A stretch of 64,000 bases of DNA. Source: Fischerella thermalis PCC 7521. Lineage in GTDB: Bacteria > Cyanobacteriota > Cyanobacteriia > Cyanobacteriales > Nostocaceae. How positions within the stretch are numbered: position 1 is the first letter of the stretch; each line of letters begins with the position of its first letter. The stretch is from assembly GCF_000317225.1 (NCBI RefSeq), contig NZ_AJLL01000005.1, positions 207,930-271,929 on the forward strand. Direction: 5' to 3'. The notes below the pieces were generated by a model. That model had not been told where the DNA came from. It saw only the letters and a program-made list of their open reading frames with translations, and did no database searches. The translations under genes were made by a program, and so were the position numbers. This document shows, one piece after another, positions 43,595 to 47,635 of this stretch.

Positions 43595-44884
43595 CTAAAT
43601 TATCGTCCCATCAGGAATAACGGCGTTTTTCAGTACAACGACAATGCCACTACGGATGTAGAAACCTTGACTTTCGCGCTCGGCTTCTTGGACATTATCT
43701 TTGTTAACGATTTGCACATCACAACCGATGTGAGTATTTTTGTCAATGATGGCACGGCGAATAATGGTGTTAGAACCGATACCTAAAGGCACACTACGGT
43801 GGTCACAGTCAGACTGGCGTTCAGCAAATGGCTGATACATGTCTGCACCCATAATCATGGAATCTTGAATGATACAGCCAGATTCAATGCGCGATCGCAC
43901 TCCTAACACCGAGTTTTCAATGCGGCAATTTTTGAGAATACAACCTTCGCCAATGATTGATTGGGTGACATGACAATCTAGCAGTTTGCTGGGAGGTAAA
44001 TAACGAGCGCGAGTGTAAATCGGCGCTTGCTCATCGTAAAAACTAAAAGGCGGGCGAGGTTGTTGAGTTAAAGTCAGGTTGGCATTATAAAACGCTTCAA
44101 TTGTTCCGATGTCTTCCCAATAGTCATTGAATAGGTAAGCTTGAACGTTGTAATCGTTGGCGGCGTCAGGAATAATTTCTTTGCCAAAATCAGTCCTTTC
44201 GGAAGCTTCTTTCAACAACTTGATCAAAACATCTTTTTTAAAGACATAGATTCCCATGGAGGCGATGTATGGCTGCTGTTCGGCTTGTTCTTGGTTTAAG
44301 CCTAAAACAGTAGTATCAACCCGCATTTTCTTTAAAGCTTCGCCTTTGGGTTTTTCGCTGAAGTCAACAACCCTGCCAGACTCGTTGATTTTCATCAAAC
44401 CAAAGTCTGAGGCACGACGTTCATCAATGGGTATAACTGAGAGAGTAATATCAGCTCCAGTTTCCCGATGACGTTGGATAAATTGGCGGTAGTCCATGCG
44501 ATACAGATGATCGCCGGATAGGATCAAATATTCATCTACATCCCATTCTTCAAACAGCCATAGGTATTGACGAACCGCATCGGCTGTACCTTGGAACCAG
44601 CTGAGGTTTTCTGGGGTTTGTTGTGCCGCGAGGACTTCCACAAACCCTTCAGTAAAGCCAGCAAAGCTGTAGGTACGAGCAATATGGCGATTCAGAGAAG
44701 CCGAGTTGAATTGTGTCAGGACGTATATTTTGAAAATTTCGGAATTTATACAATTACTGACAGGGATATCTATCAATCGATACTTACCCGCCAAGGGCAC
44801 CGCTGGTTTTGCGCGTAGTTTGGTGAGCGGATAAAGGCGGGTTCCTGCACCGCCACCGAGAATGATTGCTAAAACTTTTTTCAC
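43595..44884 (-). CDS. glgC: Glucose-1-phosphate adenylyltransferase
   Basis: ADP-glucose pyrophosphorylase, the committed and 3-PGA/Pi-regulated step of glycogen synthesis. 429 residues, usual for the cyanobacterial enzyme. Seen: [20 protein letters not shown] (nucleotide loop), [32 protein letters not shown] with the metal Asp, FSEKPKGE (Glc-1-P Lys), and a C-terminal left-handed beta-helix ending in the allosteric lysines [15 protein letters not shown]. Its product is what GlgX and the GH133 protein later debranch. Its upstream region (44885-45049) holds its promoter; no clear consensus was found. Confidence 0.97.
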
Positions 44885-45049: not shown

Positions 45050-45361
45050 TTAATATTTATTAACACTGATACTCTTCGGATCCCATTGCCTATCCACCAA
45101 ACGCAACTTTTGCGATAGTTTCAGATACTGCACCCAAGACTGTTCTGAAAGTTTAGCAATTTCATTAACAGATAAAGTAGCAGAAAATACGTCTTTTTTT
45201 TCCGTAATTCCACTTATTCCGAGATTTTCCAAGATAGCAGCCGCATTAGAATTATCCGCTACTGGTTGGGTGTGGATGAAAACCACTAAACTACGTTCAT
45301 CTGGATCTTGGACTTGATTGAGCGCCATAGCAAGGGCGGCATCTAGCTTTTTATAATTCAT
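45050..45361 (-). CDS. Free-standing homolog of the S8 protease N-terminal domain
   Basis: 103 residues. It aligns by eye with the first ~110 residues of the S8 protease encoded 540 bp upstream on the same strand. Both start with a short Met..Lys..Leu..Ala helix. Both then have RS(L)VVFI, a gap-variable loop ending in GI, and a final stretch: SATLSVNEIAKLSEQSWVQ here, TAYLPIDSLDVLSEESAVE in the protease, with the end KLRL/KLKL. In S8 proteases this region is the inhibitory and folding prodomain (I9-like). A separate copy could act in trans as inhibitor or chaperone. No catalytic motif is present. This is inference from similarity and position. Confidence 0.6.
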   Translation of the reverse strand: MNYKKLDAALAMALNQVQDPDERSLVVFIHTQPVADNSNAAAILENLGISGITEKKDVFSATLSVNEIAKLSEQSWVQYLKLSQKLRLVDRQWDPKSISVNKY

Positions 45362-45898
45362 CTGAAAATCCCCTGTAACACCATATTGGGAAAGGGTGAA
45401 GGGTTAAAGGAATTGATGTTCTTGCCGTTGGCCCTTTAACCTTTTTCCCTTTCGTAGTGTCTTAATTCTTTTAGAGTAAGCTTAATTTATTGGACAAAAG
45501 GCAGGTTCAAAATAACCTGTCCTAAAAACAACCTATCAGATTTATAAACTTGACGCGCCTACCCTTGTATAGACTCGATAATATGATTTTCTATAACTAA
45601 TTAGAGATTTAACTTCTTGTGGGGAAAAGAGCTAAGGTTAAAGGGGTAGAGTTAAAGGAATAGAGAAAATCCTTACCTTTTACCCTTCACCTCTTAACTG
45701 AATTAATTTATGGATAACGTGTTTCACTACTGGTCTGTATCATTAGTTCTCAGGAAGTTCTCAGGAGTTGCCATGGCTAGATCCCCGAATTTTTTAAAAA
45801 GTCGGGGATCTCGCACCTCATCAAAACCAATGACACAAACTACCAGCCAAAGCAGAATTCCCTACTTTTTGGCAGATGTATTATTTCAGCCTTTGAAA
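45362..45898. other. Intergenic region with repeats
   Basis: No gene. Contains CTTTAACCTTTTTCCC-type repeats (about 45431-45460 and 45640-45690) and a palindrome with 10-bp perfect arms, AGATCCCCGA/TCGGGGATCT (45779-45788 and 45802-45811). One arm of the same palindrome recurs near 52255-52271. There is no T run on the minus strand, so it looks like an interspersed palindrome rather than a terminator. Confidence 0.5.
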
Positions 45899-47635
45899 CT
45901 ACAAATTTTCCACATTAATTAATCCATAACCCCATTTCTTATCAAAGGTTCCTGCATTTTGTCCAGGAATAGAGCTATTTTGACGTAGCAAATCTTTCAC
46001 AGCCTCTGGGGTAAGATTAGGATCACGTTGCAGCAACAGTGCTACTAAGCCAGTAACAAATGGTGTTGCCATACTCGTACCAGCTAAGGCTGCAAATTTA
46101 GAGTTCACCATCATTGATCGATCAAAGTTGGCAGTAGACGAAAGAGCAGAAACAATCATCGCTCCTGGTGCTGCCACATCAGGCTTTTGGGAACCATTCC
46201 GCAGTGGGCCTTCGCTACTAAAGTCAGAAATATCATCCAACTCTAAACCGACTTGCCGCTCAATACCATCAATATCAGTGTATTTATTTTTAGTAGTATA
46301 AGAAGCTACTGTGATTGCAGTGCTGGCAGCGCCTGGTGAACCAATTTTCATCGTGTCGGATATGCTTTTACCTGTAAAAAATACCGACGCGGCCTCATCT
46401 AATGTCCATACGTCTAGGCGTACGTTATTTCCGGAGGTGTTGCGTACTCGTAATTGCCAAACTCCACCTGGTACAGGTTGGTTAAATATAAAACCTCCGC
46501 CTCGAATTTGCACGAAGAAGTTATAGTCCCCGTTGACTGGATCTGGTCCTGGGGTGACAATTTCTACCCGTGCATCTGGTAGGTTGTATTGTTTTGAGGG
46601 ATTGCCATTAGAAATAATTGGTTGGAAAGGAGTCACAAATCCGTTGGGACTGCGTAGAGATATTTCCAACTGACCATCACGGGAATACCAACCGTTTAAC
46701 CAAATAATACCTACTTGATTGTAGGGAACACTAAAGCGCATAGTTCCCAAGGTTTTGCTGCTAACAGTTGTCTGACCGTGAATATTGTCATTACCCTCGT
46801 TACCCGCAGCACAGCAAACAATCCTTCCCGGTCCGGATTCAGCATCAATAATTTTTGATAGAGAGTCACTACCATCGTGGGCGTCGGCGTGTCCACCTAA
46901 GCTGAGGTTCACAACTGCTGGACGTCCCATTTCACTTGCGACTCGGAAAATATAGCGAACACCATCAGCAATGTGAGCATCTTGCAAATCAGTTTTCACA
47001 ACTACTAATTCTGCTTCTGGTGCTACACCACCATAGGTACTATCCAAGCCAGAGGCTATACCTGCAACGTGAGTACCATGACCGTCTGTGTCTTGGGAAA
47101 TTGTCAGCTGGGTTCCGGTTAATTCGGCTCCATAACCACCTTCTGCTACTCCTGGACCTGGTATGGTTTGATCCCAAATTCTCAAGATACGTTCTGCGAA
47201 AGCGGGGTGTTTTGGATCAATACCACTGTCTATGACCCCAATAACTACCCCCTTACCAGTCAATCCAGTATTATTCTTAAACTCCGGCAGTTTTACTTTC
47301 TCCGGTGCTGCGTCCATCCGTAATTTTAATTTACGAGATGGTTTGATCCTTTCAACAGCAGATTCTTCAGATAAAACATCTAAACTATCTATGGGTAAAT
47401 ATGCCGTCCTAACAGTACCTGTACTTTGGTTAATTTCAATACCGTATTGTGACAAATGGCTCAAATCAGCATTTTCATCACAGTAGATAAAAACGACACT
47501 ACGGGTTGGCTTAACACTATTTTTCGGGGCAATTATCCCGAGCGATCGCTTGTGCGTGGTTAAAGCTTCTTTTCCTTCTCTTTGATAGTCCTCATAAGCC
47601 AATAGCAATCCGGGAGAAATTTTTTCGTGTCTCAT
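45899..47635 (-). CDS. S8 (subtilisin-like) serine protease
   Basis: 578 residues. The N-terminal ~110 residues form a prodomain-like region. The catalytic triad is Asp in GVIDSGIDPKHPAF (about 136), His in DGHGTHVAGIASG (about 186) and Ser in LAGTSMATPFVTG (about 520). The His-to-Ser distance (~330 residues) is much longer than in plain subtilisins, because a beta-rich domain (about 285-430, PNGFVTPFQPII, NPVPGGVWQLRVRNTSG) is inserted, as in CspA/CspB-like S8 proteins. No signal peptide is evident, so it may be cytoplasmic or exported by another route. A free-standing relative of its prodomain lies downstream. Confidence 0.93.
   Translation of the reverse strand: MRHEKISPGLLLAYEDYQREGKEALTTHKRSLGIIAPKNSVKPTRSVVFIYCDENADLSHLSQYGIEINQSTGTVRTAYLPIDSLDVLSEESAVERIKPSRKLKLRMDAAPEKVKLPEFKNNTGLTGKGVVIGVIDSGIDPKHPAFAERILRIWDQTIPGPGVAEGGYGAELTGTQLTISQDTDGHGTHVAGIASGLDSTYGGVAPEAELVVVKTDLQDAHIADGVRYIFRVASEMGRPAVVNLSLGGHADAHDGSDSLSKIIDAESGPGRIVCCAAGNEGNDNIHGQTTVSSKTLGTMRFSVPYNQVGIIWLNGWYSRDGQLEISLRSPNGFVTPFQPIISNGNPSKQYNLPDARVEIVTPGPDPVNGDYNFFVQIRGGGFIFNQPVPGGVWQLRVRNTSGNNVRLDVWTLDEAASVFFTGKSISDTMKIGSPGAASTAITVASYTTKNKYTDIDGIERQVGLELDDISDFSSEGPLRNGSQKPDVAAPGAMIVSALSSTANFDRSMMVNSKFAALAGTSMATPFVTGLVALLLQRDPNLTPEAVKDLLRQNSSIPGQNAGTFDKKWGYGLINVENL

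Follow-up and report, generated by a model that had tools for sequence, protein, structure and literature searches.

Stand-alone proteins that resemble the propeptides of subtilisin-like (S8) proteases are known, and one account lists, as such inhibitors and mimics, three members of MEROPS inhibitor family I9 (POIA1, the yeast inhibitor of peptidase B and Arabidopsis SPI-1) together with the parasite proteins SUB1-ProM and TgMIC5, noting that the three I9 proteins are without significant sequence similarity to propeptides (PMC6993865). For the protease CspB, the consulted section of the source describes a prodomain that folds the enzyme when supplied in trans and whose last residues block the active site (PMC3567191). 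In Myxococcus, the subtilisin-like protease PopC has no signal peptide and is found in a complex with PopD, a partner that keeps it from being secreted and that is broken down during starvation, according to the portion of the report at hand (PMC6434023). Bacillus IPI is a reported inhibitor of an intracellular S8 protease and has an immunoglobulin-like fold, and its gene, in the text available, does not lie near a subtilisin gene in completely sequenced genomes (PMC3901451). Here we describe a locus of the cyanobacterium Fischerella thermalis PCC 7521, within a 64,000-nucleotide stretch of contig NZ_AJLL01000005.1 (positions 207,930 to 271,929; hereafter the window), in which a small gene for a prodomain-like protein accompanies a gene for an S8 protease. 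The product of the small gene is likely a detachable off switch for this protease.

A free-standing relative of the protease prodomain

An earlier sequence-only reading of this locus had proposed that the small protein aligns with the N-terminal domain of the protease, and the alignment holds throughout the helix and blocks it named. BLASTP of the two proteins gave 37% identity over 63 residues with an expect value (E) of 6e-6 in a single comparison, and profile-profile comparison with hhalign, at a probability of 96.7% and E 5e-10, placed residues 1-102 of the small protein against 1-118 of the protease. Controls made of seven other 118-residue windows of the protease, its reversed N-terminus and 50 column shuffles reached 0.8% at most. 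A second alignment of the prodomain, built from the window and related loci (25 rows), returned a probability of 96.6%; both profile alignments are shallow, with an effective sequence number (Neff) of about 2. The paired blocks are RSLVVFI/RSVVFI, LSEQS/LSEES and KLRL/KLKL, and the N-terminal helix is aligned as well (K-L/I-x-x-x-L). Judged by these alignments, the homology is real but distant.

Structural comparison points the same way. The best matches of the small-protein model are other S8 prodomains, including that of Thermococcus Tk-SP (PDB 3afg), and the small protein is thus predicted to have an S8-prodomain-like fold, as expected of an I9 member; POIA1 was the I9 member taken into this comparison. 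Because the model of the protease was poor, with a predicted local distance difference test score (pLDDT) of 48, the comparison was the indirect one with other S8 prodomains rather than with protease residues 1-110. A sequence search of the PDB with the S8-prodomain profile found no chain apart from one chance match.

The small open reading frame (ORF) is, by its conservation, a real gene family: 142 of 153 candidates were relatives, and a broader profile yielded 298 of 2625. Carriers include the filamentous cyanobacteria Fischerella, Nostoc, Calothrix, Scytonema and Tolypothrix, as well as Coleofasciculus and Symplocastrum. Ratios of nonsynonymous to synonymous substitution (dN/dS) of 0.11-0.24 in 21 pairs, drawn from the window and loci L001-L006, indicate purifying selection. 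Neither Pfam nor NCBIfam matched the small protein at E up to 1, and in Pfam this includes the I9 inhibitor model (PF05922) and the IPI (BsuPI) model. No relative was found in a viral collection. By hydrophobicity, the only property considered here, the small protein has no strongly hydrophobic N-terminal stretch; its best 10-mer (1.47) is at residue 25, a predicted strand.

We searched genomes in six frames with the small-family profile, scoring at most 13 first-look candidates per genome. Beyond the small gene, the matches were almost only to the prodomain of the paired protease: 3 cases at E 0.001 (388 genomes) and 6 at E 0.01 (386 genomes), with one case shared and all inside the S8 ortholog. 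At E 0.001 the search reached just 3 of 43 S8 orthologs, and in the window's own genome it listed the small gene alone. One further match (E 2.7e-4) ran antisense to another ORF and was taken as chance. Among the ORFs of 11 S8 loci, the small family and the S8 prodomain were reciprocal best matches, with no other S8 closer. Since neither has a better relative than its partner in the S8 loci examined, a partial duplication at the 5' end of the paired protease gene is the probable origin of the small gene.

A protease resembling the domain-inserted type, with no visible signal peptide

The paired enzyme belongs to peptidase family S8 by its PF00082 match (Table 1) and by its catalytic residues Asp136, His186, Asn279 and Ser521, none of which varies across the 29 proteases aligned. 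The distance from His to Ser is 335 residues, close to the roughly 330 given in the earlier reading, which called the type domain-inserted. A single continuous alignment to CspB (PDB 4i0w) runs through the region where Csp proteases carry an inserted jelly-roll domain, and the low-confidence protease model places strands there. The protease falls far below the cut-offs of the NCBIfam Csp models (133.1 of 1250 and 74.4 of 675 bits). With regard to an anti-phage role, PADLOC matched it to a general subtilase model and more weakly to IetS, and matched the small protein to nothing. As the sequence-only reading had also noted, no signal peptide is visible: on hydrophobicity alone, no strongly hydrophobic stretch lies at the N-terminus of the protease (best 10-mer 1.01). 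The protease's own N-terminal region is kept in all 29 aligned proteins; of 62 loci, 60 have it and the remaining two are truncated where their contigs stop.

Co-occurrence of the two genes

In many filamentous cyanobacteria the small gene often lies just after the S8 gene. Among the best 80 of 95 loci found in named genomes, 62 carry the protease ortholog in the examined flank, always upstream and on the same strand; the two genes are within 200 bp of each other in 33 and within 1 kb in 48. Several contigs end nearby in the remaining 18. The pairing seen in the window thus withstood a wider check.

We then surveyed 388 genomes of the order, calling the small gene at E 0.001 and the protease at E 1e-150 with three candidates per genome scored. 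The small gene was present in 45 genomes, the protease in 43 and both in 40. Twenty-five of the double carriers have the genes adjacent, within 1 kb on one strand, and four more within 10 kb; in the other 11 they lie on other contigs, on other strands or up to 2.8 Mb apart. Counted by hand per genus, 22 genera hold both, 4 the small gene only, 2 the protease only and 121 neither. Association tests gave p values of 3e-45 and 3e-20, relatedness being ignored. In the window's own family, all 34 sampled carriers of the small gene also hold the protease; of 36 genomes with the protease, two (G368 and G229) lack the small gene. In G368, glgC directly follows the S8 gene; a candidate small-gene remnant in G229 (E 0.95) was not significant. 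In G205, the last of the three protease-only genomes, the sequence stops at a contig end.

A conserved block upstream of the small gene

The intergenic region between the two genes holds a conserved block of about 115-130 nucleotides. A model of this block (R1), built from an alignment (A6) of 35 sequences with the window as one row, was searched over 68 sources totaling 1.22 Mb and gave 46 matches at E < 1e-8, one per source and all within about 300 bp upstream of a small gene. Of these matches 27 came from sequences outside the model, and 8 from loci where the examined flank contains no S8 gene; this flank spanned 10 kb upstream at L003, L008, L013, L017, L040, L072 and L076 and 2 kb at L050. 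Locus L035, likewise without S8 in the examined flank, has a weaker match. The other 22 sources gave weaker matches or none, among them loci L088-L091 of a second family (f2) and loci without the small gene. The start of the block coincides with the 3' end of the S8 gene where the two genes touch, and an imperfect copy of this start stays at the small gene when the protease lies apart. By this distribution the block seems to belong to the small gene, which suggests that this gene has control of its own, perhaps through a promoter or a leader RNA.

Rfam gave the intergenic element no match over the gathering score, returning weak and implausible families only. RNAalifold found no convincing or covarying structure, with 9 pairs, none changed on both sides, and a 3' hairpin that is poorly aligned there; we therefore did not call the block a riboswitch. 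Only part of the relatives show a clear terminator-like hairpin ahead of the start codon, with 28 of 76 beating all 60 composition shuffles, a weak control. At L009, L014, L015, L041, L054, L062 and others the hairpin arms vary yet match, often with T residues after them and mostly 18-33 nucleotides before the start codon, an arrangement that is terminator- or attenuator-like.

Role of the small protein

On balance we favor a model in which the small protein binds the active-site cleft of its paired protease and inhibits it in trans, regulating the mature enzyme. The protease would fold with its own prodomain and then cleave it off, as other subtilases do. The free copy would take the same surface, and by analogy with known prodomain complexes its KLSQKLRL tail is predicted to lie in the active-site groove, the terminal KLRL entering where substrate binds. 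The level of the small protein, set via its own conserved upstream block, would then decide how much active mature protease the cytosol contains. Prodomains normally inhibit once and are then lost; with a copy encoded by a gene of its own, a bacterium could lock a mature protease again inside its own cell.

The sequence-only reading had raised control in trans, by an immunity-like inhibitor or by a chaperone. Control in trans remains the likeliest role, and between the two forms we infer inhibition of the mature enzyme, because the protease comes with its own folding domain in cis. That the small protein is instead an intermolecular chaperone seems unlikely: prodomains do fold their enzymes, that of CspB in trans in the part of the source consulted (PMC3567191), so a natural free copy could do likewise, and the pairing and gene order would fit a folding helper equally well. 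The retention of the protease's own N-terminal region at nearly every locus argues against such a helper, as do three genomes in which the small gene survives with no S8 ortholog detected. These same genomes (G308, G314 and G360) raise the prospect, about as doubtful though marginally less so, that the small protein mainly inhibits another protease, such as another S8 of the cell or of another organism. They hold 9, 13 and 2 S8 domain matches, respectively, their small genes show dN/dS of 0.16-0.18 among themselves, and in two of them the small gene sits just before a CHAT-CHASE2 gene. Yet within the examined S8 loci the small protein is most closely related to the paired protease's prodomain, no sampled small-gene genome of the window's family is missing the protease, and the small protein has no N-terminal signal-like stretch.

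Several observations count against a simple pair. Gene order here is conserved beyond the pair, 59 of 80 loci having glgC on the same strand no more than 5 kb downstream of the small gene, so adjacency to S8 does not by itself prove function. This synteny, and the fact that the upstream block accompanies the small gene where S8 lies outside the examined flank, would suit a relict duplicate that took on a non-proteolytic role and merely inherited its place; we consider this improbable, given that the two genes co-occur even where a long distance or different contigs separate them (11 of 40) and that the prodomain core and tail motif are retained. In the five f2 genomes the small gene is more divergent. 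G297 and G349 have the S8 ortholog in broken frames, and in G349 the small gene is frameshifted too, appearing as two pieces in the six-frame search. No S8 ortholog was found at E 1e-10 in G308 and G314 (both 99% complete) or G360 (83%), where the ortholog search returned at most general S8 matches (about 36%). This absence weakens both the immunity-like comparison and an exclusive partnership. The intact small genes of G297, G308, G314 and G360, with dN/dS of 0.10-0.18 in six pairs, look selected although the S8 ortholog is broken or undetected; at least in f2 genomes, the small protein therefore probably has another use.

We tentatively extend the favored reading to a history, less probable than inhibition itself, in which the prodomain of a single cytosolic, Csp-like protease was copied in cyanobacteria to give a separate gene under a conserved control region of its own. 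Such a gene would encode a reusable lock that re-closes the mature enzyme, and some lineages may have kept the lock for other targets after losing the enzyme.

Locus features and variant arrangements

The minus-strand order in the window is S8, small gene, glgC, with 537 bp between the first two (Table 1); the ORF following the small gene is presumably glgC, to judge by its sequence. The gap also holds a short palindromic repeat (45778-45815) with dozens more matches in the same genome.

Table 1. Features of the locus in window coordinates
Feature	Position	Strand	Basis and remarks
S8 protease gene	45899..47635	-	578 residues, ORF 47635->45899; PF00082 E 3.1e-49; catalytic residues intact
Small gene, free-standing prodomain-like protein	45050..45361	-	103 residues, ORF 45361->45050; relatives, hhalign, model, dN/dS
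Tail motif KLSQKLRL, small protein residues 81-88	45098..45121	-	Counterpart of KPSRKLKL in the alignments with the prodomain of the protease
Protease's own prodomain, about residues 1-108	47312..47635	-	Profile alignment with the small family; boundary approximate
KPSRKLKL, protease residues 98-105, prodomain end	47321..47344	-	Alignments
Predicted beta-rich insert, CspB type, about residues 286-413, between His and Ser	46397..46780	-	Strands in low-confidence model; continuous CspB match
Conserved block upstream of the small gene	45483..45611	-	Alignment A6 and model R1; 96.5 bits, E 8.5e-18
Presumed glgC, next after the small gene	43595..44884	-	ORF order in the window

S8 orthologs in broken frames were seen at L093 (5658-7498, minus strand), on C57 of G297 and on C547 of G349; at L093 the S8 gene is broken near codon 243 by about 110 bp that contain stops, and the neighboring small gene is open. 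A CHAT-CHASE2 gene follows the small gene at L089 (1944-4934, minus strand) and L090 (3927-6877, plus strand), both from genomes without a detectable S8 ortholog, and none is present beside it at L088 and L091 as far as the contigs reach. We did not retain CHAT-CHASE2 as a conserved partner: among the loci examined, a full-length relative stands beside the small gene at only these two, with a partial 31% match in L024. Genes inserted between S8 and the small gene encode CHAT, trypsin-like and pentapeptide-repeat proteins at L007 (5500-9860) and helix-turn-helix and pentapeptide-repeat proteins at L022 (6904-9860), and on both sides stands a sequence that imperfectly copies the 3' end of S8.

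Comparison with known systems

A literature search of incomplete coverage found no paper on such a bacterial pair of protease and free prodomain. The likeness to PopC and PopD lies in a subtilisin-like protease with a partner and no apparent signal peptide; PopC is secreted, and PopD is set beside the small protein by description, as given in the accessible part of the source. IPI, from the portion of its account at hand, is immunoglobulin-like, unlike the small protein with its predicted prodomain-like fold. The Tk-SP prodomain is part of the protease chain, whereas the small protein has a separate gene. The protease resembles the clostridial germination protease CspB, which retains its prodomain, in its extra residues between His and Ser and in aligning to 4i0w without a break. 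In contrast, the free CspB prodomain was made by experimenters, as far as the excerpt tells (PMC3567191), and the small gene is a separate natural one. Compared with the stand-alone I9 inhibitors, the small protein is bacterial, has no signal-like stretch, carries an extra N-terminal helix and has no Pfam match, and its inhibition is putative. Stand-alone propeptide-like inhibitors being already known, what is new is a bacterial family still recognizable as its neighbor's own prodomain. Having kept the similarity to propeptides that the best-known examples lack in the available text (PMC6993865), the family would illustrate a route by which propeptide inhibitors become stand-alone proteins.
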